Shown here in pieces: positions 14,900-31,827 of a DNA stretch of 54,986 nucleotides (its first letter is position 1; every line of letters starts with the position of its first letter). The translations under genes were made by a program, and so were the position numbers. Source of the stretch: Gemmatimonadota bacterium (GTDB taxonomy: Bacteria > JAAXHH01); the NCBI GenBank assembly GCA_009838645.1, contig VXRC01000020.1, positions 1 through 54,986 on the forward strand, written 5' to 3'. Under the pieces are notes generated by a model. The model searched no databases. It had not been told where the DNA came from and saw only the letters and a list, made by a program, of their open reading frames with translations.

Positions 14900-14949
14900 G
14901 ATTTGAATCGCCGCCATACCCCGCACAATACGACATGAGAGGCGCGATC

Positions 14950-16212
14950 ATGATGCAAAGATGGCTTGGCGTACTGGCGATGGTACTCGTGACGGCGGTA
15001 GCGATGGCAATGGCGGTGGCCGCGTGCGGCAACGATGATCCGACGGGGCCTGATCCGGCGCCGATGGCGGAACCGAAACCCATCGTGCTTGGGACGGCCG
15101 TTGCGGAGACCGGTCGCCTCAGCACGCCCGGATCGGAGGTCAGCCGCGGATACAGACTAGCCGTTGAAATGCTGAATGAGATGGGCGGCATCGGCGGGCG
15201 GGAGGTGCAGTTGGTGATTCACGACGATGGAAGCGACGCGGACGCGAGCGTTCGCCTTTACCAGGAGATGATCGCATCGGATTCCATCACCGCTTTTCTG
15301 GGCCCATACGGCAGCGGGATCACCGAACCCGTAATCAACGTGACGGAATCGGCCGGGATCCCGCTCGTCTCTTCGGCAGCAGCGGCTCCCGTGATCTGGG
15401 AGAATCGAGGTCGGCAGTGGAGCGTGCAGATGTCGAATCCGGGCCCGACTTATCTCGAGGGTTCCGTGGAACTGGCTGCGCAGGCCGGTGCGCGCACGGT
15501 GGCGCTGGTGTGGGAGGATACGGCCTTTCCCACGGCGGTGGCCCAGGGTATTCGCGATGCGGCTCGGACCTGGGAACTCGACCTCGTGATGGAGCAAGCC
15601 TACGCGGCGGGAAGCGCGGACCACGAGGCACTGGCGGCCATGGCCCGGGATGCGGGCGCCGATCTGTTCATCGGTGGAGGGTATTCTGACGACGCGATCG
15701 CGTTCGCGAAAGCCGTGGCCGTTGTGGATTACAAGCCGCTCCTGACATCCCTCCTCCTGGCGAGCGGAGCATCCTTCATAGGCGAGGTGGGCGCGGCCGG
15801 GCGATGCGTCATCGGCAACGCTGCCTGGGATCCATCGATCCGTACGGAAGGGTACATCGCCACGAACGAGACATTCGTACGACGCTACGAAGCGGCCTAC
15901 AACAAAATGCCGGACTACCAGGCCGCATCGGGTTTCGGCGCCGTCGAACTCCTCGCGGAGGGCATCAACCGGGCCGCTACGCCCACAGGGGGAATCGACC
16001 GCGCGTCCATACGCGACTTTTTGTTTGCGACCTCCAAACAGACCGTACTTGGACCCTTTGGCGTCTATCCGCTGGGCGACGCCCAGGCCGGCGCTCAGCG
16101 CGATCTGAAGGGCATACAGGTCCAGTGGCAGGACGACGGGGCGGGCGGCCTGGTCAGTCGCATCGTACATCCGCCGGAGGTCAGTCAGGCGTCTTTGTGC
16201 TTCGCGCGCTGA
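14950..16212 (+). CDS. LivJ-like periplasmic binding lipoprotein (Peripla_BP_6)
   Basis: About 420 residues. A hydrophobic leader ends in AVAAC, a lipobox, so the mature protein is a lipoprotein with an acidic linker. The remainder follows the branched-chain amino-acid / amide binding-protein fold: GLA-type opening PIVLGTAVAETGRL, GYRLAVEMLNEMGGIGGREV, then FLGPYGSGITEPV and PLVSSAAAAPV. Such proteins deliver substrates to LivHMGF transporters or act as receptors. No permease or ATPase gene is nearby, so it may be an orphan receptor. ATG 14950 (or 14953) is preferred because AGAGG lies 8 nt upstream; an in-frame ATG at 14935 is possible. Confidence 0.85.
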   Translation: MMQRWLGVLAMVLVTAVAMAMAVAACGNDDPTGPDPAPMAEPKPIVLGTAVAETGRLSTPGSEVSRGYRLAVEMLNEMGGIGGREVQLVIHDDGSDADASVRLYQEMIASDSITAFLGPYGSGITEPVINVTESAGIPLVSSAAAAPVIWENRGRQWSVQMSNPGPTYLEGSVELAAQAGARTVALVWEDTAFPTAVAQGIRDAARTWELDLVMEQAYAAGSADHEALAAMARDAGADLFIGGGYSDDAIAFAKAVAVVDYKPLLTSLLLASGASFIGEVGAAGRCVIGNAAWDPSIRTEGYIATNETFVRRYEAAYNKMPDYQAASGFGAVELLAEGINRAATPTGGIDRASIRDFLFATSKQTVLGPFGVYPLGDAQAGAQRDLKGIQVQWQDDGAGGLVSRIVHPPEVSQASLCFAR

Positions 16213-16259
16213 ATTCATCGTTTACCAGGAATCGCCAACCAGACTGGGGAGCATCTACA

Positions 16260-16580
16260 ATGCCTGCTTATGTCATCTCCATGATGTCCGTCCATGACCC
16301 CGAGACCTACCGGAAGTACACCGACCGGACCCCAACCATCGTCAAGAAGCACGGGGGCAGGTTCCTGACACGGGGCGAGGAAATCGCCTGTGTCGAGGGC
16401 AAGAACTACGACGGGCGGATGGTGATCCTGGAGTTTCCAAGCAGGGCGCATGCAGAGGCGTGGTACAACGATCCGGCGTACCAGGAGGCGATGAAGTTTC
16501 GCCAGGCCGCTTCGACGATGAACTATCTGCTGATTCAGGAAGGTGGCGAGAATACCCGGGATCCGGACCCGAAGTTGTGA
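16260..16580 (+). CDS. DUF1330 family protein
   Basis: 106 residues. The pattern PAYVISMMSVHDPETYRKY, HGGRFLTRGEE and FPSRAHAEAWYNDPAYQ is the DUF1330 dimeric alpha/beta-barrel (ferredoxin-like) fold. The molecular function of this family is unknown. GGGGAGC about 10 nt upstream supports ATG 16260; earlier in-frame codons overlap the binding-protein gene in another frame and are not used. It is the last high-GC gene before the defence island. Confidence 0.88.
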   Translation: MPAYVISMMSVHDPETYRKYTDRTPTIVKKHGGRFLTRGEEIACVEGKNYDGRMVILEFPSRAHAEAWYNDPAYQEAMKFRQAASTMNYLLIQEGGENTRDPDPKL

Positions 16581-16626
16581 CGGGGACCGTCATAACCACT
16601 AAGTGTTAGAATAGGAAAGCCTAACT

Positions 16627-17535
16627 ATGCTTGAGAGATTCACTGGCCAGGATGGACGAACCTTCGTGATTGATGCGCTAAGGGATCAGTCTGTCACAAG
16701 CGGGGATGCCAGACTCGCTGAGACTGTCTGCAACCATGCAGAGGTCGTGGGATTCTCTCAAGGGTCTACCATAATTAAAGAGTCAGCACCAGACAACGAC
16801 ATCTACTTCATTTTGGCCGGCGTGGTCTCGATCCGAGTAGGTGGCAGAGAGATCGCGGTTAGGACAGCGGGACAGCACATCGGTGAGATGGCAGTGGTGG
16901 ATCCTGGACAGCCACGGTCCGCATCAGCGGTCGCTGATGGTGAGGTAGTTGTCGCCCGAGTTTCTGCAAGGACTTTCATAAACCTGGCAGAAGCCAATGC
17001 GCGACTATGGCGGAACATCGCTCGTACATTGGCCGAACGTCTTAGGCAGCGAAACCGATTCGTCTCATCAATGAATCCACGGCCCGTCTTATTCGTTGGC
17101 TGTTCAACAGAGTCGCTCCCGGTCGCTCAAGCTATCCAATCGGCTCTCGCCCACGACCCAATTGAAGTCAAAGTCTGGACCGATGACATCTTCGAGGCAT
17201 CCGACTTCCCAATCCTATCATTGGAGCGCGAGTTGTCTATAGTCGATTTTGCCGTCCTTCTCCTGTCTCCTGACGATACGGTGATCAGCCGTGAAACCAC
17301 CAGTGACGCGCCGAGGGACAACATAGTGTTCGAACTGGGACTCTTCATGGGAGCCTTGGGACATTCGCGCACGTTCCTGGTCTATCCATATAGCATCGAC
17401 ATTAAGATTCCAACGGACCTCGCAGGAATCACACCCTTGACATACGAGCAAAGGCCACAGTGCGAGCTTCCATCTGCGATTGCTCCAATGTGTATCCAAC
17501 TGAGAAACCGAATACTGAAGGTCGGTCCGCGCTGA
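16627..17535 (+). CDS. pycTIR: Pycsar-type effector: cyclic-nucleotide-binding domain + TIR-like domain
   Basis: 302 residues. Residues about 35-145 form a cNMP-binding domain: IYFILAGVVSIRVGGREI, then the phosphate-binding cassette with G86-E87 and R97 in GQPRSASA. Residues about 152-300 form a TIR-like domain of the PF10137 type, starting PVLFVGCS, with VWTDDIFEAS, FAVLLLSPDD and the signature RDNIVFELGLFMGALG (E236 in FELG is the expected catalytic Glu). In Pycsar immunity the sensor binds cCMP or cUMP and the TIR part depletes NAD+, stopping growth of infected cells (established knowledge). AGGAAAG lies about 8 nt before the ATG. A class III cyclase gene follows after 23 nt, giving the diagnostic two-gene layout. 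Soluble and cytoplasmic. Assignment to Pycsar rather than another cNMP-gated system rests on this pairing. Confidence 0.88.
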   Translation: MLERFTGQDGRTFVIDALRDQSVTSGDARLAETVCNHAEVVGFSQGSTIIKESAPDNDIYFILAGVVSIRVGGREIAVRTAGQHIGEMAVVDPGQPRSASAVADGEVVVARVSARTFINLAEANARLWRNIARTLAERLRQRNRFVSSMNPRPVLFVGCSTESLPVAQAIQSALAHDPIEVKVWTDDIFEASDFPILSLERELSIVDFAVLLLSPDDTVISRETTSDAPRDNIVFELGLFMGALGHSRTFLVYPYSIDIKIPTDLAGITPLTYEQRPQCELPSAIAPMCIQLRNRILKVGPR

Positions 17536-17558
17536 AGCTGGTTAAAGGAGTAGAGAGT

Positions 17559-18251
17559 ATGGGACTTGGTGACGACCTCAATTCAGAAGTGAGAAAGATC
17601 CTCCAAGAGACCTGGAGCAAACGCACTGGCCAGGTTATTCCAGAAGCAGATGACCTGAAACTCGGTAATGATGCGGTTATTCTAGATGGCACGGTACTAT
17701 ATGCAGATCTTGACGATTCTACCAGGTTGGTAGACACGAAGAAGCCGTTCTTCGCGGCAGAGATTTACAAATGCTACTTGGTATGCGCTGCCAGGATTAT
17801 CCGCTCAGAGGGTGGAGAAATCACATCCTACGACGGTGATCGCGTAATGGCGGTCTTTATCGGTAATTCAAAGAATAGTAGTGCTGCACGCACAGCTCTC
17901 AAAATCAACTATGCCGTGAAAAACATCGTCAATCCTGCAATAAAAAAACAATATCCCAAGACTAACTATTCGGTTAAACATGTAGTAGGAATCGACACCA
18001 GCGAACTCTTTGTGGCACGAACGGGTATCCGGGGAGCTAATGACCTCGTGTGGGTTGGCCGAGCGGCCAACTATGCTGCCAAATTATCTGCGCGGTCTGG
18101 GCCACCTACACAGATAACCAGTGACGTATACGACATGCTTCATAAGAACTCAAAGTTCGGCCAGAATGGAAAGAACATGTGGACTTCAACAACAGCTCCA
18201 GAAATCGGGAATAAGAGGATATATACTTCAACCTGGTGGTGGAGTGTGTAG
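17559..18251 (+). CDS. pycC: Class III nucleotide cyclase, probable pyrimidine cyclase of Pycsar
   Basis: 230 residues, a single stand-alone cyclase domain without membrane or receptor part. The two metal-binding Asp residues are present: D50 in VLYADLDDST and D94 in TSYDGDRVMAVF. Downstream, VWVGRAANYAAKLSARSG supplies N171 and a basic residue (K175) where purine cyclases have the Asn-xxx-Arg pair. The general shape (short, soluble, with YADLDDST and WVGRAANYAAKL) matches PycC enzymes, which convert CTP or UTP to cCMP or cUMP during phage infection. Which pyrimidine is used cannot be read here. AAAGGAG 8 nt upstream fixes ATG 17559, although the frame is open further back into the effector gene. 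It converges with a HicB-like gene. Confidence 0.87.
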   Translation: MGLGDDLNSEVRKILQETWSKRTGQVIPEADDLKLGNDAVILDGTVLYADLDDSTRLVDTKKPFFAAEIYKCYLVCAARIIRSEGGEITSYDGDRVMAVFIGNSKNSSAARTALKINYAVKNIVNPAIKKQYPKTNYSVKHVVGIDTSELFVARTGIRGANDLVWVGRAANYAAKLSARSGPPTQITSDVYDMLHKNSKFGQNGKNMWTSTTAPEIGNKRIYTSTWWWSV

Positions 18252-18356
18252 TCGCTCGACCAGCGAAAGCACGGAGTAATCGAACTACAGTATCGGCGTG
18301 CGCAGATCAACTATGATCTTATAAAGTATGCTTTCAGGAATTGTTCCTCGTAGTTC

Positions 18357-18518
18357 CTACTTCCGGCGATCTTCCAGCACTAGCGTGATAGCTTTGTCCA
18401 GATTATCGAGGGCCTCATCTACGGTCCGACCCTGACCGTTTGCTCCGGGTATTTCATCACAATATGCGATGTACCAACCGTCGTCCCACTCGATAATCGC
18501 CTTAAACTCGTTTTTCAT
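18357..18518 (-). CDS. HicB-like antitoxin, orphan and short
   Basis: 53 residues from the internal ATG at 18518 (MKNEFKAIIEWDDGWYIAYC). The pattern IPGANGQGRTVDEALDNLDKAI is that of the HicB_like partial RNase-H fold. It lacks the C-terminal DNA-binding helix-turn-helix or ribbon part of full HicB antitoxins. The gaps on both sides (about 105 and 127 nt) are too short for a HicA toxin, so it has no partner here. No strong ribosome site is visible. It may be a remnant or a stand-alone regulator of the genes upstream on the same strand. Confidence 0.8.
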   Translation of the reverse strand: MKNEFKAIIEWDDGWYIAYCDEIPGANGQGRTVDEALDNLDKAITLVLEDRRK

Positions 18519-18645
18519 CGTACACTGATTCTGCTGAGTCGTTCGGGGTGTCTTACTCCATTTGTAAAGCACGGGTTGTTTGTGTCAGGCCGTCCTGAGT
18601 TTTTGAGTCCTTTGCACTGCTTACTGGTTGTTTTGCCGCCACTGA

Positions 18646-21600
18646 TCAATCGTCTAAATCCAAGAAACCAAATTGTCCACCCCGTAGTATAGTTTCCCGG
18701 GCTTCTTCGGCGGTCCTACGTACGTTTTCGTCTTCGTTATTAAGACCTGCCTTCAAAATGGCCTTAGTGTCGTCAGGAGGGACGTATATCAAACCTTCTG
18801 TCGGCATGTTTTGGATCAACTTAGCGAAACAAAAGACAACTTTCGCGGTATGTTCCGGAATCATCTTTCGTAGCGCCATTATATGAAGAGAAGCGTAACG
18901 TGGTTCACCAATCTTAGTATCCAATATACCAGGAACATTTAGAATCTTTGTATAGGCGTCCAATCTCCAATCGGCTTCCAAACACTCGGACTTCATCCAG
19001 AATGTGTATTCACGAAGTTCCTTCGGTTCACCGGTTTTAAGTCTCCAATCAAAGAAGGCGGATATCTTCTGCCACAGCGTTTCGTCAACTTGCCGCTTAC
19101 CTGTACTATTCAGTTGACGACCTACGTAGTCGAACAAAATCGCCCACCGTTCTCGTTCGCCGTTCAATCGTTGGTAGAAACGCTCCAGTAAACTACCGCA
19201 TCCCGAAAGCGGAAACACTCCTCGTACATAGAAAACAAACAGATGTTCACCTAGAACGTCAATTGCCTCCCGACCGGGATGACTCTGTTTTTTAAGATCA
19301 TCCATATGGTCCAGAGCAAATTTGTAGTCATCATGAATAACCTCGAAGATTGGCATGTAGGGGTTATTCCATATGAGTAAACTTCCAAAACCTGCAAGCC
19401 AGACGGGCATGTTGTCCCTAGGAAAGAATTTAGGCTTGTGATTTTCAGCCCATGGCTTGGAAAGGTGATGAAGGTGTGGAAAGTATCTACCAAGTAGAGC
19501 GTATTCCGGTATAGTCAGAGGGCATCGCGCGTCGTGTTTAAATCGTTGTTCTAGAATTAAAGTGATCTCACTGACATCGGTCTCGGTGTTATACCTGCGC
19601 ACCCAAAGGCCGAAATCGACAAGATGTTCCAAAGCACGACCTCTTGTCGTGTTTATTGCGTACGTAAACGGATCGTCAGGATTTCGCAACACGGTCTGGT
19701 CACGATCAAGACTGTAGTCAAACTGAGTGCAGAGAATCTCAAGCAAACTGGCAAGCGCCACCCTGTTAGAAATCGGAACGTTGTTTTCCTCTTTGAGACA
19801 CATCCCAACTAAGTCTCCAACAGCCCGTCTGGAAGAACGCCAACTTACATCTTCCCCTAATCTATCGTGGTAACGAATAGTTGCCTCGCGATCTTCATCG
19901 AGATGGGATAAAACCCATTTGCAGAAGTCAAACCATCGGTTGAGTTGATCAAAGTTTCCCGCTTCCACTCGCGTTTGCATGGCCTGTATCATGTATTCTA
20001 CATAGATCGGCCGATTTATAAGATCGCAGTTTTGCTCTAACCAGAATGAAAGCCTATTATCATCCGGGATGATCGACTTGATGAATACGGACTGAAACGC
20101 ACCGGCCAATGCCGGGATGTTTACCTTGATCAACCAGTTGTCTTTGTCCGAATGTTCATCCTGCCATGCGTTGATGTACTCGAGTATTTCCTCGTCTGAG
20201 TAAGTGGATAGTTCTTCGGAGGTTTTTGGACTTCGATAAGAAAAAAAACCGCCTGTTGGTACTCGGACGGACAAATAGGTATCATCAGAAACTTCGTCCG
20301 CATCGTCATCACTGGCGAGTGATTGGTAATAACTGGCGTAATCACCAAAAAGTACTGAAGCAAATGGCCTGAGCTGCAATCGATGGTACTCGCGTTTCCA
20401 TTGTTCGAAATCCCTTTCACTAAACTGATCGCCAAACCATTCACGATACGTCGCCAGTTCAGGTCCCTTAACGATCAAATCAAAAATCCGGATTCGGTCA
20501 CTTTCCTTGAGAAAGGCGGCTCCATAATGTTCGCAGGCAGTCCTAATCATCCTTTGAAATTCATAGGGATACCTAGATCCTTCCGCATAATCGTTGTAGC
20601 CAAGGATCAATTCCTGAACCCAAGGTTTTGTCTGTTCATTCGGATACAAAGTGTAAAGGTGTTGACGGAGCCGCACGAATATTTGCCAGCGTTGGTTTCT
20701 TAGAACACGATCTAAGGACGCGATTGTTGCTCTAGATAACTGGGCAAAGACTTCCTTACAGGCATATGTTAATGTGTTTACGAGTGTTTCCTTGGATTCT
20801 GCGTTTTCTCGTCGTTGCTCTTCAAGTTTTGGGCACCATACTTCCGATGAATCATAGCTTATACTTTGTTCGATCTCGTCCTGATGCTTTCCTAGGCGAA
20901 TCAAGTTCGCTGTCGCATCTATGAGCATACGGGCGACCTTGAAGGGTTCTTTCAATACCAGCGGGCGAACTCCTTTTTCCATGACTTGCTGATAGTTCCA
21001 ATCGTCTAAAAGCGGGGCAGTTTCAAGCATCGTATCCATTGATACAGATACATCATCCTGACTGTACTCCGCTTTCCGCTGGTATTTGTCCTCAGCTTGG
21101 GGATCGGGCTGAAACTGAATAAGTACATCTGTAAGATCCAAGGCAGCTTGCGTCTGATCCTCGGTAGTCCAATGGGCTAATATCTCAGCGAATCTGTGTG
21201 GTATGAGATAGCGACTCAGGCTGGCGTACTCCAGAATCTTAGGCTGTAGGCTGACGGCTTGGCCACCATCAAGTGACAGTGCGATTTCCAGAACATATTC
21301 ATAGATTCTTGGGTTATCGACTTTCGGGAGTTCCAATACGATATCTATGACATCATCTGGTACGTGCTGGCATATCTTTTGAAGATAGAAAAGTTCGGGC
21401 CAAGATGGATATTGAACAGTACCGTCAGGGAGAACGATTTTACTGGGGGGATTTTGAAAGTAGTCGTTTTTGAGACGACTTAACCAATCTGGATCGCTAC
21501 AGTTTAAAAAAAAGTAGGTGTAGTTTGTACCGTGAGTTCGCAGTAACATTATCACACGGTCAATTTCAATCTGTGTAACGGAACTGCCCCTTCCTAGTAC

Positions 21601-22272
21601 CTCCTTGAGTACGGTGAGGTCCTCAGTGACTATAGGGCTAGACAGATCTACAGGTTCGATTTTGGATGTGTCTGGTTTGAATTCAGGCTCAAATGCTCTA
21701 ATGTAATCGGCCAATTTAGAATAGTGGTTTATATATGGTCTTGGTTGACATGCCTCTTTAAACACTTGATCTGCTGTCACGATGGCTATGCTCGCACCAT
21801 GCTGATGGTGGTATTGATCCAAAGCACTCAGTATTAATGCATCGGGAAATTCCTTTTGTTTTTTACCCGAAGCAAACGGCGGTTTGACCGCAAAGTACCA
21901 ATTTACAACCTCTTCTAAGCTCCCCACGAGGGGCAGCATTTCAACAATAAAGTGTTCCTTGAAAACCTCCCATTGTTGTTGCAGTTCGGCAAGGCATTGC
22001 TCCTCCAGTTCTTCTCCTGACGGGAGATCCTCAAATCCAAGAGAACTGACAGGGTGTATTTTGACAGCGTTTTCGAACGTCTTTCGCGCTTCACTTGCTC
22101 TTTCTCTGTATTTTCTCGCAAGTTCCCTTTCCATCATTGCAGGAATCAATAATCTCAGTCCTCCTTTTACAAAGGTCTCATTGAGGATTCTGAAATGCGT
22201 AGTGTCCAGGTTAAGGTCGTTCCTGCAAAACACTTCTGTATCAATGTACAGATTCGTAGGAGGGTGTCGCAT
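18646..22272 (-). CDS. Giant PIN-domain protein (DUF4935-like nuclease plus long helical region)
   Basis: 1208 residues. The first about 180 residues look like a PIN nuclease of the DUF4935 type: D11 in NLYIDTEVF, E48 in PAMMERELARKY, D144 in EFPDALILSAL and D168 in IVTADQVFKEA are the expected acidic metal ligands. The remaining about 1000 residues have no motif I recognise; they read as helical, Trp- and Leu-rich repeats and could be a HEAT-like scaffold. PIN domains cut RNA. The start has no clear Shine-Dalgarno. It lies 91 nt after the methylase gene on the same strand and probably shares its transcript, so it is likely part of the same defence module. Codon use is AT-rich like its neighbours. 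Confidence 0.75.
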   Translation of the reverse strand: MRHPPTNLYIDTEVFCRNDLNLDTTHFRILNETFVKGGLRLLIPAMMERELARKYRERASEARKTFENAVKIHPVSSLGFEDLPSGEELEEQCLAELQQQWEVFKEHFIVEMLPLVGSLEEVVNWYFAVKPPFASGKKQKEFPDALILSALDQYHHQHGASIAIVTADQVFKEACQPRPYINHYSKLADYIRAFEPEFKPDTSKIEPVDLSSPIVTEDLTVLKEVLGRGSSVTQIEIDRVIMLLRTHGTNYTYFFLNCSDPDWLSRLKNDYFQNPPSKIVLPDGTVQYPSWPELFYLQKICQHVPDDVIDIVLELPKVDNPRIYEYVLEIALSLDGGQAVSLQPKILEYASLSRYLIPHRFAEILAHWTTEDQTQAALDLTDVLIQFQPDPQAEDKYQRKAEYSQDDVSVSMDTMLETAPLLDDWNYQQVMEKGVRPLVLKEPFKVARMLIDATANLIRLGKHQDEIEQSISYDSSEVWCPKLEEQRRENAESKETLVNTLTYACKEVFAQLSRATIASLDRVLRNQRWQIFVRLRQHLYTLYPNEQTKPWVQELILGYNDYAEGSRYPYEFQRMIRTACEHYGAAFLKESDRIRIFDLIVKGPELATYREWFGDQFSERDFEQWKREYHRLQLRPFASVLFGDYASYYQSLASDDDADEVSDDTYLSVRVPTGGFFSYRSPKTSEELSTYSDEEILEYINAWQDEHSDKDNWLIKVNIPALAGAFQSVFIKSIIPDDNRLSFWLEQNCDLINRPIYVEYMIQAMQTRVEAGNFDQLNRWFDFCKWVLSHLDEDREATIRYHDRLGEDVSWRSSRRAVGDLVGMCLKEENNVPISNRVALASLLEILCTQFDYSLDRDQTVLRNPDDPFTYAINTTRGRALEHLVDFGLWVRRYNTETDVSEITLILEQRFKHDARCPLTIPEYALLGRYFPHLHHLSKPWAENHKPKFFPRDNMPVWLAGFGSLLIWNNPYMPIFEVIHDDYKFALDHMDDLKKQSHPGREAIDVLGEHLFVFYVRGVFPLSGCGSLLERFYQRLNGERERWAILFDYVGRQLNSTGKRQVDETLWQKISAFFDWRLKTGEPKELREYTFWMKSECLEADWRLDAYTKILNVPGILDTKIGEPRYASLHIMALRKMIPEHTAKVVFCFAKLIQNMPTEGLIYVPPDDTKAILKAGLNNEDENVRRTAEEARETILRGGQFGFLDLDD

Positions 22273-22363
22273 ACCAGGTTTACATTTATTGAGGGGATTG
22301 CAGGAACGTTTGTAGACTACGATTTGAGAAGGTGGACATCATCAGAATCTACGTCTGTGAACA

Positions 22364-25300
22364 TTACCGCCCCATGCGGTACTTGATGTCATAATTTACG
22401 ATGAAATCCAACTCTTCGTCTGTAAATCCGTAGTGTTCAGCAAGCACCCGGTCGATTTCGTCAACGATAGGTTTCGACGGCTTCTGATTGAACTCGTCGT
22501 AGATGACTTTTCCAGTTGTTTGGTACAGAGTTTCCTTGCGCGTCTTGTGTTTATTGAAGTTTGCCATTAGTCGGTCAGTTAGGTTGGCGAGGCGAGCTTT
22601 CATGTCCACCGTCATTCGATCAAGCCCAAGCGGAAAATACTCGATTTCTCGTAGATTCAGGTGTCTACAGTCTGACAGTATCAAGAACCACCAGTAGAAA
22701 AGCGAACTGTTAAGTGCCGCCACTGTCGCAGCAGCATCCGGTTTTTTATCTAAAACCAGCTTCTTAACCTGCGTAGAAATTTGCTCTCCGTCTCGTTCGT
22801 TCCAGAAATATGGAGCGTAATCCATCGCACGGATCCAGTATTGAGGGGCGTTATGGAAATAAACCAGACCAGATCCGTGTTGAAGTAGTCGGTTACCAAG
22901 CTTCTCGTGGTCTGAAATACGGTGGATTATCTTTGAACCTAACACTTGTCCAATTTTTGGAATTGACCCTTCAACGATGCTCAGATATTCCCCTATGGAA
23001 GTCAGTGCCAGAGAATGAAATAACTGCACCCGTGCAATTGATCTCCAGCGTGAATAGGAAGTGGAATACGTACGCTTGTTATTGGTTTTTTCCTTATGCG
23101 AAAGTATGATCGTGACTCGTATATGTTGCAATCCATCGAACAACTTGGCTGGACGGTCATCAAAATGGGAGAACCAAAGACCGACACTATCGTCGTGGAG
23201 TTTGGTTTGGACGGGTATCATCCTTTGAGTACAGGAAACCGATAGTTGTACGATCATTCCCATACGACCGCCTGAAGGTAGTGTGGCATATGAGCGCTCT
23301 AGTACATATGAATATAAGTTACCGCAGGATTCCGTAGAGTATCCTATTACGGTGTAGTCCGCTTTAACGTTGCTGTATTCCACATACGGTGGATTCCCAA
23401 CTATCACGTCAAACCCACCACTCTGCATTATCCCGAAGAACTCGACGAACCAGTGAAAGGGCTGATGGCTTTCTCTCCACTGTTCGTAAGCCAACGAGTC
23501 GTCGGTTTTTATGCCGTATTCGCCTGCCAGATAGCTATCTAATTCCACTCGAAGTTCGTCCAAACATCCCCGAAGGACAGCTTTCGCGTTGGCAACGCCA
23601 CCCGCATCAATTTCGTGCTGTGTCTGCATGCTTTTGAACTGTCGAAAAGCCTGATCGGCGTTTCCGGCTCGCGCTTCGATCTTGGGAAGTTCCGACAATT
23701 TGAACAGATCGCCGCCAAGTGCTCGTTCCACCTCGGCCAGCGACGCAAAGCCGACTAAGGTATTACCCCCTCGAACGTTGAAGTCGATATCAGGCAACGG
23801 CTCGATCTGATCGTAACTTTCCAGTTGGGCGACGAGTTTAAGGAAGAGCCGCAGCTTGCAGATTTCTACGGCTTCTTCCATGATGTCCACGCCATAGAGA
23901 TTGTTGATGATGATGGACTTGAGGATGAAGTAGATTTCGTTGTCGTGACTGGCCACCTCGTCGCGCACATTGCGGAAGTCTTTGAGGCTCTCCGGGTGAT
24001 GTTTCCGTTTCGAGACGTACTGGTCTTCAAGGAACTGTTGCATCGCGTCCAAACAGGCGGAATATACGGGCTCCAGGATATTTAGGGCGGCAAACAGGAA
24101 GGCTCCGGACCCGCAGGTCGGATCGAGGACCGATATGCTGGTGACGGCCTTCCAGAATGCGCGGACCAACTCCGGCCCTTCGCTTTTGCTGATCACGTCC
24201 TGCGCAAATTGCTCTATGTTTAGATTGTAGGTGATAAGGTCGTTTATGGCAGTGACTTCGCCGCTCGCGAGTTTGGCGTAGATTTCTTCGTAACGCTCGC
24301 GACGGGCGACATGCTCGCGCCAGGTCTCAGTTAGAAGTGCGTATTCGGCAGGGGCAGCCTCGTTCCAGTTGTCCCGTTTGGTCACGTCTTGCAGGCCAGC
24401 GGCAATATCCGGTGGCAATGAACGTTTCTCAACTAACGGCTTACCGTCATGGACGTCATACGTGATACCGTGACGCACCGAGTCGTAGAAGTACTTGTCA
24501 GGATCGTCTTGTAGCAATCGCCAGACACCGCCACCGGACGTAAAAGCGATGGGGCAGTGTTTCTTCGCTTCGTCGAAGAGATAGGGCAGTATGGTATTGC
24601 GGCTGATGTACCCGGTAATGTCCTCCTTGGTGTAGTAGGCGCCCATCTGCTTCTGGTTGATGTATTTCTCGAAGATGTAACCGAGCACATCGGGGTTGAT
24701 CTCGTTGTCATTGCGCAGAATTCGGTCGTCAAGGTGCCACTGGTAGGCGTCGAAGAAATCAAATATGCACTCGAAGGCTTCATCGGGGATTTCGATCTGC
24801 GGGTTGTCTCGTTCCAGGTCATGCACATCGAAGAGACCGCCGTTGAGATATGGGACGTTGCCGATCAGCGCCGTAAGTTCCGCTGACCGATCCGCTTCGG
24901 GTCGGCCAAGGCCTTCATGGAAGAGACGCATGAGAAACAGTCGATAGAAGCCGTGGAATTTGCCCTCCCCTTCTGCTTCTTGTACCGCGTTTAGTTTGTT
25001 TCGGAGATAGTCTATGTCGCTGTCGAGGAACCCGCGCTTCTGGATGAAGTAGATGAACATCATCCGGTTCAGCATGATCGAGGCGTACCACTCGCGGTCG
25101 GCCATTTCCAGGATGCCTTCGATGAATCCCAGAAAGGCCTGGTGTTCGGTCTTGAATCGATCGTAGAACCTTTTGGTGACCCTCTCCACGTCAAATGCAG
25201 CACGAACACGGCCGGATACGTCGACAATGGACAGATCTTCTTCCTCTTCAATGCTGACAACCAGACGCTCCAATTTCTGTATCAATGCTTCGCCCGATTG

Positions 25301-25672
25301 TTCTTGACTGTAGAAATGCGATCGAGGGCGGTCTGGTCGCCCCGGCTCACGTTTCACCCACTGCCAGTGTTGCGACGAACGGTCGTGAGGCGTGTAGACG
25401 ATGATATGTTCGCGTACGGCTTTGGTGACCGATTTCTCAATCTTCTGACGGGTGGGATAGTCCGGGAAGTCGCCATCTGATTGTGCCACTTGCTGATACG
25501 CGACCATTCCGCGCTTATGCGCTATGGCATCGAGACGATAAGCACGATCACCTACCGTTACCTCGAGGTTCTCTCCACCGTGATCCCAGCCTAGATCCTC
25601 AATGAAGAGTGGCTGTAGGTCGAAATCTTCCAGACGTTCTCGAACCTGTTCTTTGTTAATTGGAGTAGGCAT
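22364..25672 (-). CDS. Eco57I/DrmMI-like adenine-specific DNA methyltransferase
   Basis: 1102 residues from the preferred ATG at 25672 (MPTPINKEQV); an in-frame ATG at 25744 would add 24 residues. Residues about 345-355 (GAYYTKEDITG) are the pre-motif typical of N6-adenine methylases. Motif I is SVLDPTCGSGAF (DPTCGSG at 517-523) and motif IV is NPPY at 760-763. The N-terminal 150 residues resemble the nuclease-like start of type IIG enzymes (FIEDLGWDHGGENLEV, then RLDAIAHKRGMVAYQQ), but QQ stands where an E-x-K would be expected, so nuclease activity is doubtful. The C-terminus is probably the target-recognition region. It methylates adenine in DNA; the sequence cannot be predicted. It is in the same direction as the helicase but separated from it by an inverted AbiE pair. 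Confidence 0.87.
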   Translation of the reverse strand: MPTPINKEQVRERLEDFDLQPLFIEDLGWDHGGENLEVTVGDRAYRLDAIAHKRGMVAYQQVAQSDGDFPDYPTRQKIEKSVTKAVREHIIVYTPHDRSSQHWQWVKREPGRPDRPRSHFYSQEQSGEALIQKLERLVVSIEEEEDLSIVDVSGRVRAAFDVERVTKRFYDRFKTEHQAFLGFIEGILEMADREWYASIMLNRMMFIYFIQKRGFLDSDIDYLRNKLNAVQEAEGEGKFHGFYRLFLMRLFHEGLGRPEADRSAELTALIGNVPYLNGGLFDVHDLERDNPQIEIPDEAFECIFDFFDAYQWHLDDRILRNDNEINPDVLGYIFEKYINQKQMGAYYTKEDITGYISRNTILPYLFDEAKKHCPIAFTSGGGVWRLLQDDPDKYFYDSVRHGITYDVHDGKPLVEKRSLPPDIAAGLQDVTKRDNWNEAAPAEYALLTETWREHVARRERYEEIYAKLASGEVTAINDLITYNLNIEQFAQDVISKSEGPELVRAFWKAVTSISVLDPTCGSGAFLFAALNILEPVYSACLDAMQQFLEDQYVSKRKHHPESLKDFRNVRDEVASHDNEIYFILKSIIINNLYGVDIMEEAVEICKLRLFLKLVAQLESYDQIEPLPDIDFNVRGGNTLVGFASLAEVERALGGDLFKLSELPKIEARAGNADQAFRQFKSMQTQHEIDAGGVANAKAVLRGCLDELRVELDSYLAGEYGIKTDDSLAYEQWRESHQPFHWFVEFFGIMQSGGFDVIVGNPPYVEYSNVKADYTVIGYSTESCGNLYSYVLERSYATLPSGGRMGMIVQLSVSCTQRMIPVQTKLHDDSVGLWFSHFDDRPAKLFDGLQHIRVTIILSHKEKTNNKRTYSTSYSRWRSIARVQLFHSLALTSIGEYLSIVEGSIPKIGQVLGSKIIHRISDHEKLGNRLLQHGSGLVYFHNAPQYWIRAMDYAPYFWNERDGEQISTQVKKLVLDKKPDAAATVAALNSSLFYWWFLILSDCRHLNLREIEYFPLGLDRMTVDMKARLANLTDRLMANFNKHKTRKETLYQTTGKVIYDEFNQKPSKPIVDEIDRVLAEHYGFTDEELDFIVNYDIKYRMGR

Positions 25673-25821
25673 TTGTATTTCCAGATGAGTATGCTGCTTG
25701 TTGATCTGAGCCGATTTTAGTAAGGAACCCGTACTAGAAAACATTCAGGATTTACTAATCTACTGCGACTAAGGTTATAGTGTTATCGAGATACAAACGA
25801 TCTTTGAAACATAAAATGTTT

Positions 25822-25888
25822 TTGACAACGAAAGAATCAATCCGTATTTTCTGACTAGTATAACTCACTTACTTTAATTCACATTAAA
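25822..25888 (+). promoter_or_regulatory. Probable sigma-70 promoter and operator of the AbiE pair
   Basis: TTGACA (25822-25827) is followed after 17 nt by TATTTT (25845-25850), pointing toward the AbiEi gene. Between the promoter and the ATG (25901), TTTAAT-tcac-ATTAAA forms a perfect inverted repeat with 6-bp arms (25873-25888), framed by CTCA and TGAG. AbiEi proteins repress their own promoter through inverted repeats, so this is a candidate operator. Confidence 0.6.
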
Positions 25889-25900
25889 TGAGAAATAACG

Positions 25901-26704
25901 ATGATAAATACTAGTACCGATGACAAACGATCAAACCCAATTGGAAGATTAAGGCTTTCAACGGTATTGCAAGACGCGAACGAAGTCATCGAAACCGACG
26001 ATGTAGTCAAGACGCTATCTGTAACACGAATCGAAGCCTCGAAGCTATTATCCAGATGGGCCGGTCAAGGTTGGTTGCGACGAGTAGGGCGTGGGACTTA
26101 CATACCCGTTCCTTTGGATTTACTTGGCAGTCGCTATGTTTTGGACGATCACTGGGTACTAGTGCCATCACTTTACGGATCATCCTACATTGGTGGATGG
26201 ACCGCTGCGGAGTACTGGGACCTGACGGAACAACTGTTTAATGACACAGTCGTGATGACGTCGAATCCGGTTAGACAAAAGCAGCAGATCCGACATGGAG
26301 CAAGGTTCCTGGTGTTTCATGTTCACAAGCGCAAGGTGTTCGGCACTAAGACGGTTTGGCGAGGAAGCACAAGAGTGACCCTCTCGGACATTCACCGAAC
26401 CATTATCGACATGTTGCATAATCCAAAGCTAGGTGGTGGCATACAACATGTGTCGGATTGCCTGGATGAATACTTGAAGAAGCCGGAACGAAGTGATGAA
26501 TCGTTGATGGCATTTGCAGAGAAACTTGGTAATGGAGCAGTACTGAAGCGCTTGGGCTTCTTGATAGAACGGCTGTCCGGTCCATCAAAGCTCACGAAAT
26601 GGTGTAAAGAGCATATGACCACGGGTAACGCAAGGATTGATTCCGCACTTAAATGTACGCGCTTAGTAACTAAATGGCGGTTGTGGGTTCCACCGGGTTG
26701 GTAA
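25901..26704 (+). CDS. abiEi: AbiEi-family antitoxin / transcriptional repressor
   Basis: 267 residues. The N-terminal winged-helix region (VIETDDVVKTLSVTRIEASKL, then GWLRRVGRGTYIPV near residues 60-75) is followed by the alpha/beta part with YIGGWTAAEYWDLTEQ. This is the AbiEi_4 antitoxin type of type IV toxin-antitoxin systems. AbiEi represses the operon and counters the AbiEii nucleotidyltransferase without binding it directly (established knowledge). The ribosome site is weak (GAGAAATAACG). It is transcribed opposite to the methylase, with a shared intergenic region of about 230 nt. 14 nt separate it from the toxin gene. Confidence 0.87.
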   Translation: MINTSTDDKRSNPIGRLRLSTVLQDANEVIETDDVVKTLSVTRIEASKLLSRWAGQGWLRRVGRGTYIPVPLDLLGSRYVLDDHWVLVPSLYGSSYIGGWTAAEYWDLTEQLFNDTVVMTSNPVRQKQQIRHGARFLVFHVHKRKVFGTKTVWRGSTRVTLSDIHRTIIDMLHNPKLGGGIQHVSDCLDEYLKKPERSDESLMAFAEKLGNGAVLKRLGFLIERLSGPSKLTKWCKEHMTTGNARIDSALKCTRLVTKWRLWVPPGW

Positions 26705-26718
26705 TAGGATAAACATTA

Positions 26719-27945
26719 ATGATCGATAGAAGAGAGATTCTCGGCGCCGCGGAGATATCTAAAGTCCGTCCCCAAATCACCGAAAAAGACTACGTCTTGG
26801 GGTGGGTACTGTGGGGTATATTCGGAAACGAGGAACTCGCTGGAAACTGGGTGTTTAAGGGCGGAACTTGCCTAAAGAAGTGTTTCTTCGAGACCTATCG
26901 TTTCTCAGAAGATCTAGACTTTACAATAATGGATCCATCACATTTGAACGCCAAATTTCTCGAATCAGCATTCACCGAGGCATGCGAAAGGATCCACGAA
27001 GAAACAGGGATTGCACTGCCAGCTGAATTCAGGCAATTCGAAATCTATGAAAACCAACGTGGTGAGAATGCCTGTCAGGGGCGTGTCGGATATCGAGGAC
27101 CTGTATCGCCTCATGGGAACAACGCACCGAGGATCAAACTCGATCTAATATCAGACGAACGTATCGCCTTACCTCCGATTCAGACCCGTATATTTCATCC
27201 ATTCAGTGACGATCCTGAAAACGGAATCGTTGTGCAGTGTTATGCCTATGAGGAGGTCTTTGCCGAAAAAGTACGTGCCCTGGGTGAGAGAACCCGGCCG
27301 CGGGACTTATACGATGTAATCAACCTATACCGAAATGAGGGTATTCGTCCTTCAGCGAGAGTGCTACTCGATGTGCTACGTTCCAAATGCGAATTCAAGG
27401 GAATCGACGTACCAACTTTGGATATGCTGGAGCCGTTCAGACCGGAGCTGGAGGGCGCATGGGAGTCAATGTTGGGACATCAATTACCGGCACTACTCCC
27501 AGTGCAACACTTTTGGGATCAACTCGAAGAGTTCTTTCTCTGGTTGTTCGGTAAGCTAATACCTGAAAGACCTGCTCCATACACGGGTGAGGAAGGGGAG
27601 GAATTGATTCGGGACAGGTATATCGTTAATGCAGTTCCAAGGAGGGCGCGAGCACATCTCGAGGTTATTCGATTTGCTGCCGCCAATCGGATATGTGCTG
27701 AATTGCGTTACCAGGGTAGGACACGAAAAATCGAACCGTATTCGTTGCGACGATCCAGGGTGGGCAATGTTATACTTCACGCGCATAACGTAGACAAGAA
27801 CGCCCACAGGAGTTACAGGATTGATCGGATTGAAGATGCTCGATTGACCAGTACGGCCTTCGTGCCGCGGCACGAAATTGAGTTGACGCCTACCGGGCCT
27901 TACAAGATTAAACCTTCAGCAAAACGCTGGGGATCAAGATGGTAA
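26719..27945 (+). CDS. abiEii: AbiEii nucleotidyltransferase toxin with C-terminal WYL-like domain
   Basis: 408 residues. The nucleotidyltransferase signature is intact: KGGTCLKK (47-54), RFSEDLDF with D65 and D67, and FAEKVRALGERTRPRDLYDV (181-200). AbiEii toxins transfer nucleotides (GTP or others) to target RNA such as tRNA and stop translation. After the toxin fold and a linker, residues about 313-390 read as a WYL-like domain: ICAELRYQGRTRKIEPYSLR, VILHAHN and SYRIDRIEDARLTSTAFVPR. WYL domains are ligand sensors found on phage-defence regulators. A WYL tail on an AbiEii toxin is unusual and could let it respond to nucleic acid or nucleotides from infection (inference). AGGA lies about 9 nt before the ATG. 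It converges with the helicase gene. Confidence 0.85.
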   Translation: MIDRREILGAAEISKVRPQITEKDYVLGWVLWGIFGNEELAGNWVFKGGTCLKKCFFETYRFSEDLDFTIMDPSHLNAKFLESAFTEACERIHEETGIALPAEFRQFEIYENQRGENACQGRVGYRGPVSPHGNNAPRIKLDLISDERIALPPIQTRIFHPFSDDPENGIVVQCYAYEEVFAEKVRALGERTRPRDLYDVINLYRNEGIRPSARVLLDVLRSKCEFKGIDVPTLDMLEPFRPELEGAWESMLGHQLPALLPVQHFWDQLEEFFLWLFGKLIPERPAPYTGEEGEELIRDRYIVNAVPRRARAHLEVIRFAAANRICAELRYQGRTRKIEPYSLRRSRVGNVILHAHNVDKNAHRSYRIDRIEDARLTSTAFVPRHEIELTPTGPYKIKPSAKRWGSRW

Positions 27946-28016
27946 CGGCATTGGGTTGATATGGAATACTGAGGGGATTTATCGAGACCACTGGTGCTTG
28001 AACTCTGGACATCTGA

Positions 28017-31000
28017 TTAGTCTTCCGAAATCAACCCCATCGAGCAGATGATCCTTGGCTCCAGTTCTTCGTCATCTTCCTGCACGATACAGAGTCGGCC
28101 CTCGTCTCTGAGCGCAATTACCAGTTCGGCCAGGATTTCATCTGAAATTCCACTACGTAGTTGTCTGTTTAACGTATCCACCGCAGCTTGTCGTAAGGGA
28201 TGGCGATAGATTTCATCAATCGTTTTGTGTAAAGCGTCAGATTCGAACAAAGTGCCCTGAACGCTGTCGGCGTAGCTCTTAAGCCTTTCATAGGTTCTAA
28301 ACCTCGCGCCTGACGGCCGACCCAACTGCCCGCCAACGCGTTTTTCCGACCTTCGTATATGTTTCGCCGCCTGCGTCACGAGTTCGTGGTGTGTATCGTG
28401 ACGAACCATCGCCGGCGTATTCGGATCGCATTCGGCGGAACGAAGAATCTCGAACTGACTCTCCGAGATACTCTCACCGTTCCTGTTTACCCACGTCAGG
28501 GCGTCGTTCCCTTGACCAGTCCGCATATGAACGAGCACCCCATCCGGTCGTTTCGGGCGTACACTGTAGGATTTTGATGAATGAACACCCGAGGGAAGAT
28601 CCTCGATGGTTTTCTTGAGCGACGAATCTGCATCGGTTGCATTACGCCAAATTTGATAAGCATACGAAGAAAGGTCGACATCCGATTCGTCGTCATCGTC
28701 GAGAATACCGGATTTCTCATTGTAAAGGTCGAACACCGTTTTCGTATCCTCATCCTCGAAGAATGCCTCGTCTGTTCCTACGACCTCGGCATTCTCCTTC
28801 AGACGTGTACGCACCCGCGCTCTAAGGCGTATCAAGCGCTCCACACCCTCGACTGGAAGGAATGAATAACACAGGATTTCTGCTGCCTTCTGGCCAATAC
28901 GGTCTACTCGGCCTGCCCGTTGAATCAACCGTATGATAGCCCACGGTAGATCATAGTTTACCACGATGGCGCAGTCCTGCAGATTCTGTCCTTCACTGAG
29001 CACATCGGTGGAGACAAGGACCCGTATCTCGCCGTGGTCGGTCGCATACTGTTGTTTCTCGTTGCAAATCGGGCTGAAACGCCACGCCAGCGCGGTGGGA
29101 TCTACTGAATCGCCTGTGACCGGGGAAGACTCAGAAACGCCGCGGACCTTGAGCTGGTTGTCCAGGTATTGCACCGTATCAGCAAATTGTGAAAAAACAA
29201 CGACCTTCTGATTTTTGTGTTTCTCCTTCAGAACCTTCTCCAGCGCATCCAGTTTTGCATCCTGCGTCGGTTGCCATGGTCCGGATCTTTCGATGAGACT
29301 CGTCAGTGTTTTAGTGTCAGATGTGAGTACTTTTTTTAGCCCCGTGACGAATAGCTGTGACGGCAACCACCGAAACCGGTTCTTGAACCGACCGGAGTAA
29401 AGCTGGTAGATCTCGGCTGCTCTTGCTCTAAAATCCTCTTCGACCTTAAGACCGGTCTCGCTACTCGGGGCCTCGTTTTCATCTTCTTCGTCCATATCGA
29501 AGATGCTGCCTGTCGCCGAATCCGAATCTTCGTCGTAGGACTGTGTGTCCAGGATTCCAGTATCCGTCGTACCAATCGGTAACGGCAGTCCTTGTTCGAT
29601 GGCGTGAAGAAACACATAGTTGCGCAGAACATGACGTTCGACCGACAGCATGAAGGAATGGCCACTACTCTCGAGACGTTTGAACAGGTTGGTTCGGCAA
29701 AATCCCATGAGTCTCTTGCCAGCCCGTGACAGATCCTCGATGATCTTCTTTTCTTCCTGCGAAGGTGCTACGGCCGGTTCCTCCGCAACGTAGTTTCCTA
29801 GACCATAGCGAGGAAGTTCCAGGCTGTTGATAGCATCGACCACATCGTCCGAAAATAACCGGGCATACTGGTCGTCTATCTCGAACTCGACCGTCTTGGG
29901 TATACGCGTTGGGAAATAAGACCGACTTCCGTCCTCGAAGGTAAGGTACTTCCGGTCATCGTTCTCGTCAGTGGCAGCGTAGTTGTCCTGGATGAAACTG
30001 CGCGTTCTTCGTACTAGGTACAGCCGCATCAGTTCGCGCCAATCGTCCGCGAAGTCGGACTGTTCAAAAGCGGCCAGTGATCGGGCAGGAGCTTGATGAT
30101 GGCGTATAAACTCTGTTTCGCCCATTTCGCGAAGCATGCGCTCCGGTGCTATCCCAAGATCTTCATGCTCCGGAACGAAGAGTCGTAGCTGGTTGGACAG
30201 ATCGACGTACGTCTTATTGTACGGGGTTGCCGACAGCAGGATACACTTACTCTCGTTTTCACTGATGTATTCCCGAATAGCCCTGTAGCGCCTACCTTCG
30301 CGATTCCTGAGATTGTGACTTTCATCGATGATTACTACACGATACCGGCGCATCCCGGGCAGTTCGTTTATGGCACGACTGATCGATAACACCCGCGCGC
30401 GCATCCGAAATTGCTCCCGGTAATCTTTCCACATGGCCACCAGATTCTTGGGACAAATGATTAAGGTTTCGAGATTGTGATCGTCCTCGAAAATGCGCGC
30501 CAGCGCCGTGGCCATGAGCGTCTTGCCCAATCCAACAACGTCTCCAATGATAACACCGCCGCGCTTATTCAAATGATGCGCAGCGATCTTCACCGCTGCC
30601 GTTTGAAATTCCAGCAGCTTGTTTCCAAAATCGCGGGGAATGCGGAATTCGGCGAGCCCCGCCCTGGCTTCCTGCGAAAGGTGGTAAGCCATCTTTAGGT
30701 AGATTTGGTAGGGCGGTATCAGTTCTTCCCTTGCCCAGCTTGCCTCGATGATCTCAACAAGCTCTTTGGATATATCGATGCACCAGCGATCATCCCAGCG
30801 TGCTTCGAACCACTGAGCTAGTTTCTCGCAGGCATCGTGTTCCATAACATCGACGTTTAGTTCTCCCTGTTTGGAGAGACCGGACAGAGTGAGATTACTG
30901 CTTCCCAGGTACCCGACGATCGGGTTTATAGGATCAGGACGAAACAACAGGTAGAGTTTTGCGTGCAGCGTGTGTCTGAGGAACAACTTAACGACGACTT

Positions 31001-31379
31001 TCTTTTCTTTTATCTGTTTGGCAAGCCTTCGTAGTCCCTGTTCATCCGCGTTGCTTGGTGCCCCCGTTGCCAACTGATCTTTGAACTCTTCAGCTAGCTG
31101 TTTCTTTAGTTGAATTACCTTCCGGTTATCCAGGGCAGATCGGCTTTCGACCAGGCTGCTTGCCGCCCGGAATTCATCGTGGGGTAGTTGGTGCATTCCC
31201 ACCAGCAATCGGCAGCAGTGGCCTTCTCCACCACTCCATTTCTCCACGTATTGGTCGATGGATCTCCAGCCACGCAAGTTAAGGTATCCCACGCAGAAGT
31301 CTGCACTGTCAGACAACTTCATGGTTTGTGCAAGTGCCGGCAGAAGGGACTTTTCTATGTTATCGAAAATCTGTGGCAT
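28017..31379 (-). CDS. PLD-domain SNF2-type helicase of a DISARM-like module
   Basis: 1120 residues. Residues about 20-200 form a phospholipase-D-like domain (H139-x-K141 in LHAKLYLL, GSSNLT at 159-164). A SNF2/DEAH-type helicase core follows: Walker A DVVGLGKT (280-287), motif II DESH (352-355), LLSATPYN, FSQFADTVQYLD, STDVLSEGQNLQD and QRAGRVDRIGQ (about 818-830). Helicases of this shape accompany adenine methylases in phage defence, for example the SNF2-type DrmD with DrmMI in class 1 DISARM, where PLD is a separate protein DrmC. Here PLD and helicase are fused. It may translocate on DNA and nick it. The ribosome site is weak. It reads toward the methylase gene, and the AbrB-like gene lies just upstream on the same strand. 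Confidence 0.85.
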   Translation of the reverse strand: MPQIFDNIEKSLLPALAQTMKLSDSADFCVGYLNLRGWRSIDQYVEKWSGGEGHCCRLLVGMHQLPHDEFRAASSLVESRSALDNRKVIQLKKQLAEEFKDQLATGAPSNADEQGLRRLAKQIKEKKVVVKLFLRHTLHAKLYLLFRPDPINPIVGYLGSSNLTLSGLSKQGELNVDVMEHDACEKLAQWFEARWDDRWCIDISKELVEIIEASWAREELIPPYQIYLKMAYHLSQEARAGLAEFRIPRDFGNKLLEFQTAAVKIAAHHLNKRGGVIIGDVVGLGKTLMATALARIFEDDHNLETLIICPKNLVAMWKDYREQFRMRARVLSISRAINELPGMRRYRVVIIDESHNLRNREGRRYRAIREYISENESKCILLSATPYNKTYVDLSNQLRLFVPEHEDLGIAPERMLREMGETEFIRHHQAPARSLAAFEQSDFADDWRELMRLYLVRRTRSFIQDNYAATDENDDRKYLTFEDGSRSYFPTRIPKTVEFEIDDQYARLFSDDVVDAINSLELPRYGLGNYVAEEPAVAPSQEEKKIIEDLSRAGKRLMGFCRTNLFKRLESSGHSFMLSVERHVLRNYVFLHAIEQGLPLPIGTTDTGILDTQSYDEDSDSATGSIFDMDEEDENEAPSSETGLKVEEDFRARAAEIYQLYSGRFKNRFRWLPSQLFVTGLKKVLTSDTKTLTSLIERSGPWQPTQDAKLDALEKVLKEKHKNQKVVVFSQFADTVQYLDNQLKVRGVSESSPVTGDSVDPTALAWRFSPICNEKQQYATDHGEIRVLVSTDVLSEGQNLQDCAIVVNYDLPWAIIRLIQRAGRVDRIGQKAAEILCYSFLPVEGVERLIRLRARVRTRLKENAEVVGTDEAFFEDEDTKTVFDLYNEKSGILDDDDESDVDLSSYAYQIWRNATDADSSLKKTIEDLPSGVHSSKSYSVRPKRPDGVLVHMRTGQGNDALTWVNRNGESISESQFEILRSAECDPNTPAMVRHDTHHELVTQAAKHIRRSEKRVGGQLGRPSGARFRTYERLKSYADSVQGTLFESDALHKTIDEIYRHPLRQAAVDTLNRQLRSGISDEILAELVIALRDEGRLCIVQEDDEELEPRIICSMGLISED

Positions 31380-31465
31380 GTAGGCGTTCCCGAAGAACTG
31401 CTAAAGGCGATTCCCAACAGTCAAATTGGCCATATTTTGTTCAGCAGTCTGAGAGGATTAACACA

Positions 31466-31711
31466 TCAGTCTCTAAGCGACGGGTCATAAGGTTGCTCGC
31501 GGAAGACATGGATATCGAGCGGTTCATAATCGCCCCTGATTTTGTCCTTCAATGTCCCCAGACTGGAGTAGTCGATTTTCCTTGGTGGCCTGAGGATGAA
31601 CCCATCCGGCCCCTCTACGATTTCGATCCGGTCGCCGGGACCCACACCGAGGGCGTCCAGAACACTTGTCGGTAAGGTAACCTGTCCTGCAGGATCGATC
31701 TTAATCAACAT
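31466..31711 (-). CDS. AbrB/MazE/SpoVT-type DNA-binding protein
   Basis: 81 residues. IDPAGQVTLPTSVLDALGVG followed by PGDRIEIVEGPDGFILRP is the swapped-hairpin AbrB fold shared by MazE and VapB antitoxins. The C-terminal 40 residues (from RKIDYSSLG) would be the toxin-binding tail. No toxin gene lies beside it; downstream the next gene, after 87 nt, is the helicase. It may be an orphan antitoxin or act as repressor of the helicase operon (inference). No clear ribosome site is seen. Confidence 0.85.
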   Translation of the reverse strand: MLIKIDPAGQVTLPTSVLDALGVGPGDRIEIVEGPDGFILRPPRKIDYSSLGTLKDKIRGDYEPLDIHVFREQPYDPSLRD

Positions 31712-31827
31712 ATCGAAACTCTAACCGTTAGCTCGACCACGCTGTACGTTCTCGACCGGGATTCCTCATATGATATAGATCCGCCGGGAAACACGTAGAT
31801 GCACTAGTCGGAGAAGCCTTACGAAAC

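Follow-up and report, generated by a model that had tools for sequence, protein, structure and literature searches.

DSR1 is an anti-phage sirtuin in which a helical body controls a NAD-destroying SIR2 NADase, and DSR1 and DSR2 both deplete NAD+. Most PIN domains with a known function are RNases, and hydrolysis of NAD+ is not expected of a PIN domain. For DSR2 it was described that the helical C-terminal domain (CTD) senses a phage tail tube protein and gates the N-terminal SIR2, and the authors noted that their findings may shed light on DSR1 (PMC10973363). Moreover, restriction-modification (R-M) operons with suicide domains have been proposed, with PrrC as a second line of defence (PMC3506569). 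Here we describe a gene that combines features of these systems, located in a stretch of 54,986 nt which was analysed as a whole and is called the window in the following. No literature combining a PIN domain, DSR2, SIR2 and anti-phage defence was found, in a search with partial coverage that does not prove absence.

The PIN-scaffold gene and its PIN_12 domain

The gene of interest is a single intact ORF on the minus strand, with an ATG start and zero internal stops, encoding a protein of 1208 aa. The ORF of the initial annotation, for which no strand had been given, is thereby real, and the spacing of 91 nt to the end of the upstream methylase ORF was found to be exact. Only one copy is present in the genome. 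The coordinates of all features are summarized in Table 1.

Table 1. Features of the PIN-scaffold locus; ORF limits were set mechanically.
Feature	Position	Strand	Basis
PIN-DSR1-scaffold fusion gene	18646..22272	-	intact ORF, 1208 aa
PIN_12 nuclease domain (predicted), residues 8-170	21763..22251	-	Pfam PF16289 E=1.7e-21, alignment
Linker region, residues 171-236	21565..21762	-	without counterpart in split relatives (alignment)
DSR1-type C-terminal scaffold, residues 237-1208	18649..21564	-	matches separate scaffold ORFs of G011 (60%) and G010 (50%); DSR1 CTD homology
Top stretch against PADLOC Dsr1, residues 676-992	19297..20247	-	model positions 729-1024 of 1227
Type IIG R-M enzyme/methyltransferase, 1126 aa, same operon, upstream	22364..25744	-	PADLOC PDLC03628, Pfam Eco57I
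IIG variable stretch, residues 826-975	22820..23269	-	presumed target-recognition region
AbiEi/AbiEii(+WYL) pair, divergent from IIG gene	25901..27945	+	profile matches, neighbourhood
PLD(HKD)-nuclease + SNF2 helicase	28017..31379	-	PADLOC C3a139 'HKD+Snf2' 3.8e-51

In Pfam, the N-terminus matched PIN_12 over almost the whole profile (positions 1-171 of 172, 77.8 bits, above the curated family cut-off of 32 bits), whereas nothing else, including a SIR2 domain, was recognised in the protein. The acidic tetrad is complete (D11, E50, D144 and D168). When the domain was aligned with six other PIN_12 stretches, one of which (L055) is probably the wrong ORF, D11 was present in 6/7 rows, D144 in 7/7 and D168 in 6/7. 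The PIN domain proposed in the initial annotation and three of its four acids were recovered; the fourth, E48, has to be corrected to E50, since it is E50 that stays invariant at the second motif of the alignment. The domain is a predicted nuclease and probably an RNase. The AlphaFold2 model of residues 1-245, calculated from single-sequence input, was of low confidence (pLDDT 37).

A PIN_12 search over 384 genomes gave matches in 15, of which 10 were above the family cut-off. Apart from the frame of the window (1230 aa), full-length PIN_12 frames in these genomes have 368-541 aa and partial matches are shorter, so the 1208-aa protein, already described as very large, is indeed unusual in size. 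The plasmid-borne PIN_12 proteins that were checked have about 370-390 aa.

Homology of the C-terminal region to DSR1

The C-terminal part of about 1000 residues had been recognised as a large fused scaffold that could not be assigned. Indeed, it has no Pfam or NCBIfam name and no Pfam repeat match, and the NCBIfam search of the complete protein gave no match. However, the PADLOC model Dsr1 (PDLC04166) matched residues 676-992 with E=1.1e-18 (1.3e-17 in the genome-wide search). By hhalign, the scaffold clade of the window aligned with SIR2-bearing DSR1-type proteins over 780 columns (probability 98.8%, E=1.4e-16), and this alignment begins behind the SIR2 domain of the latter. In addition, an HMM built from DSR1-type scaffolds alone (L038, L039 and L041 only) found the scaffold of the window with E=1.1e-19, compared to a best control value of E=0.43 among 500 shuffled sequences and 41 reversed scaffolds. 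From these results we assign the C-terminal part as a DSR1-type scaffold: judged by profile comparison, the last ~980 residues share homology with the helical region that forms the C-terminal part of DSR1, and the PIN domain occupies in the alignment the position where DSR1 has SIR2. As SIR2 is missing, the protein is not a member of DSR1 itself.

An AlphaFold model of the scaffold from two sequences was almost all helix but of low confidence (pLDDT 41.8), and a HEAT or ARM fold, as raised in the initial annotation, is a possibility only. Searches of the PDB with the full protein, the scaffold profile and the profile of the small helical protein described below yielded nothing significant, and the DSR2 structures in the PDB had no detectable sequence match to the protein.

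The same chromosomal site in two related genomes

Relatives at the same position were found in two other genomes of the genus, G010 and G011, in which the scaffold has no PIN domain. The gene order there is IIG gene, a separate helical ORF of 209-210 aa and a scaffold of 979-990 aa. The genes at 14017-16585 of the window are 89-91% identical at the nucleotide level to their counterparts, which shows that the three genomes share one chromosomal site. A quick scaffold tree places the scaffold of the window next to that of G011 (99), with G010 joining them (99), and all three belong to a clade of split and helical-fused proteins. The simplest reading of these comparisons is that in the lineage of the window the PIN domain replaced the helical ORF, of which no clear relic was found in the window (tblastn E >= 1.6). 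This exchange at one site within a genus is a natural experiment, with one R-M core and two N-terminal modules.

The upstream IIG protein matches PADLOC PDLC03628 almost end to end (1182 bits) and Pfam Eco57I with 1.5e-24. Its core is mostly 76-97% identical to the relatives, whereas its variable stretch reaches only 23-44%. The neighbouring AbiEi gene adjoins the IIG gene in all three loci of the genus and is ~90% kept in both relatives. AbiEii is kept in G011 but was not found in G010, which has a DRT1a reverse transcriptase beside AbiEi. The AbiEi/AbiEii pair is possibly a regulator of the IIG-scaffold module. The PLD(HKD)-SNF2 helicase, which is also DrmD-like, has a 94%-identical fragment at the border of the locus in G011 and is absent from the stretch of G010 examined; whether it belongs to the same system as the PIN-scaffold protein is uncertain.

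The island around these genes (16600-31800) has a G+C content of 48.9% compared to 62% in the background. It also carries a Pycsar pair at 16627-18251, consisting of a PycTIR-type effector with a cyclic-nucleotide-binding domain (16627-17535) and an overlapping cyclase (17460-18251). Since this pair is missing at the site in G010 and G011, it may have been inserted recently next to the R-M locus. Between the PIN-scaffold gene and the Pycsar pair no ORF of at least 80 aa is present, and the preceding gene is that of the IIG enzyme. Two genomes of the genus encode SIR2-bearing DSR1-like proteins at other loci (L049:7057-10590 and L050:3195-6860), in L049 with a DNA methylase gene (N6_N4_Mtase) 1.6 kb upstream.

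Scaffold relatives, their N-terminal modules and R-M genes

The Dsr1 model matched in 25/384 genomes, in some of them on the SIR2 part only, and in one other phylum the scaffold was matched in 46/84 genomes. SIR2 is fused to the scaffold in L038 and L039 and encoded by a separate gene in L041. L045 combines a TIR-fused scaffold with a separate SIR2 and an IIG gene; this operon (L045:3630-11222) thus holds two NAD-targeting domains per DSR1-type scaffold. Among the phage records there was no match, and the viral contigs searched contained no relative, the wider alignment being too diverse for patterns. The plasmid search returned one distant scaffold (Streptomyces), and a scan of genome contigs for relatives found the G010 genome alone.

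The helical module is a separate protein in L096-L104 and fused to the scaffold in L088-L093. When the separate proteins, the N-termini of the fused form and those of the PIN-downstream class (see below) were compared with each other by hhalign, values of 91.7% and 88.9% were obtained and one pair gave 36.5%; by this comparison they look like one family. At 13 loci across phyla (L042, L047, L096-L104, L004 and L007) the helical ORF and the scaffold ORF share exactly 29 nt in different reading frames (typically ATGAAATCTTGGAAGAAACCAAC...), and such a constant overlap is a sign of translational coupling. The ~210-aa protein was also considered as a proven nuclease, but this was dropped: the fused form matched pP_pnuc_1 over mostly ~35 residues, above the cut-off in 2/6, and the separate form had no convincing Pfam match. 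For this reason we use only the name helical N-domain for it.

A further link between PIN and scaffold was found in another phylum. In 7/7 loci (L107, L108, L110-L114) the gene for a DSR1-type scaffold of 1098-1139 aa (L112 is incomplete) precedes a PIN gene with a gap of 19-21 nt, and the PIN proteins of 163-168 aa have their acids in place. This arrangement is kept with constant spacing across several species; since the seven loci form a single clade, they count as one evolutionary event. In the quick scaffold tree this clade groups with DSR1 L038 (99), apart from the window, and judged by this tree the association is independent of the fusion in the window. The scaffolds of the clade also bear the helical N-domain, so PIN does not simply replace this domain everywhere. 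A PIN ORF beside L093, which may be an unrelated VapC, was left out of the count.

Within the scaffold clade of the window an R-M gene or remnant adjoins 13/20 members, although these are not independent events because the genomes are related. The neighbour is a IIG gene for the window, G010, G011 and L047, and a type III Mod and/or Res gene for L090, L091, L092, L093, L096, L101, L102, L104 and L105. At six loci (L090, L091, L093, L096, L102 and L104) the DSR1-type scaffold is encoded between the type III Mod and Res genes. Outside the clade, a scaffold follows a type I HsdR-HsdM-HsdS operon in L042 and an IIG/DrmMI-like gene in L043, and L045 was mentioned above with its IIG gene. At some scaffold loci, e.g., L097, L098, L099 and L103, no R-M gene is nearby. 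The defence setting suggested in the initial annotation agrees with the neighbourhoods of the homologues examined: as related scaffolds are encoded in R-M operons or occur with SIR2 or TIR effectors, the homologues are not far from defence genes.

Proposed function and alternative explanations

With a probability of roughly 55%, we favour an R-M-linked PIN nuclease that is gated by its scaffold and acts in a DSR-like mode with a different effector. Infection-triggered RNA cleavage would be its most likely action, because a DSR1-type body carries a nuclease in the effector position. We infer RNase activity, gating, trigger, abortive outcome and physical contact with the R-M enzyme. The DSR1-type platform of ~980 residues would keep the N-terminal PIN nuclease inactive until it binds an infection cue, which could be a phage structural protein, by analogy to DSR2, or a partner R-M enzyme that has failed or been inhibited. 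The PIN active site might then be released or multimerised and cut RNA of the cell or the phage; by analogy to VapC-type PIN RNases, the target would be tRNA or mRNA. Translation would stop, and the phage could not multiply when restriction fails.

The chief rival sees the PIN-scaffold protein as a subunit or accessory of the R-M enzyme (restriction arm, adaptor or regulator) and not as an independent sensor; the scaffold would dock on the methyltransferase or restriction enzyme, and PIN would cut DNA or modulate restriction. It draws on the tight operon with the IIG gene, on the scaffold adjacent to HsdS in L042 and on the six loci between Mod and Res, and is also supported by the joint divergence of the IIG variable stretch and the effector/scaffold in a locus that is otherwise conserved. 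However, the scaffolds of DSR1 and of the PIN-downstream clade have no R-M neighbour in the stretches examined, and the predominance of RNases among PIN domains of known function fits poorly with a DNA-cutting arm. We regard this explanation as less probable, but still plausible.

Two further explanations appear improbable to a similar degree. In one of them the protein is a toxin with a built-in antitoxin, in which the fused helical domain neutralises PIN, as part of an addiction or stress module instead of a phage sensor. PIN domains are indeed the toxins of VapBC systems, and some conjugative plasmids encode PIN_12 proteins as well, but the C-terminal ~980 aa are a DSR1-type scaffold and not an antitoxin, related scaffolds bear SIR2 or TIR, and the gene belongs to a defence island that also contains R-M, AbiE, Pycsar and HKD-SNF2 genes. 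The other explanation is a chance or decaying fusion, either a PIN cassette recombined in for the helical ORF without an evolved function or an assembly artefact. The PIN_12-scaffold fusion was found in one genome only, a multi-contig assembly, and no clear ribosome-binding site precedes its ATG. Against this, the frame of 1208 codons is intact with its catalytic acids kept, the G+C content is even (PIN 0.448, scaffold 0.454), both flanks have homologous counterparts at this site in the relatives, and an independent link between PIN and scaffold exists elsewhere.

Beyond the window, the comparison suggests that bacteria swap different effectors onto one immune sensor body. More tentatively, as a possibility to which we give somewhat less than even odds, the DSR1-type scaffold may be a general NTPase-free, R-M-coupled immune sensor platform with interchangeable effectors (SIR2, TIR, PIN or the ~210-aa helical protein) that would provide a back-up RNase or NADase when restriction fails. 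If this is true, it would be the sensor rather than the sirtuin that is conserved in the 'DSR1' kind, and present annotation would miss systems that lack SIR2, as for the protein described here, with no NCBIfam match and only PIN in Pfam. The old idea of R-M-linked suicide, the PrrC model, would also become testable, since IIG, type I and type III operons share a partner protein.

Comparison with known systems

Like DSR1 (defense-associated sirtuin 1, PDLC04166), the system is a single large protein with an N-terminal effector and a homologous helical C-terminal region. However, the effector of DSR1 is SIR2, whereas here it is PIN, encoded together with a type IIG R-M enzyme in one operon, and the closest relatives of the scaffold have a separate 210-aa ORF instead. 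DSR2 has the same layout of an N-terminal enzyme and a large helical CTD, but with a SIR2 effector and no detectable sequence match. With the PIN_12 proteins it shares the domain family and the same acids; their full-length examples have 368-541 aa and no DSR1-type scaffold. VapBC likewise uses a PIN-fold nuclease as effector, whereas here the fused scaffold of ~1000 aa belongs to the DSR1 family and no separate small antitoxin gene was seen among ORFs of at least 80 aa. As in PrrC/EcoprrI and other R-M-linked suicide nucleases, a probable RNase is encoded in an R-M operon, here 91 nt behind the IIG gene, and could serve as a backup if restriction fails (PMC3506569). Searches with Pfam, PADLOC and NCBIfam detected no ABC NTPase or HEPN-type nuclease of the PrrC/RloC kind in the protein; PrrC combines an ABC NTPase with a HEPN-type ACNase, whereas the protein described here carries PIN on a DSR1-type scaffold.
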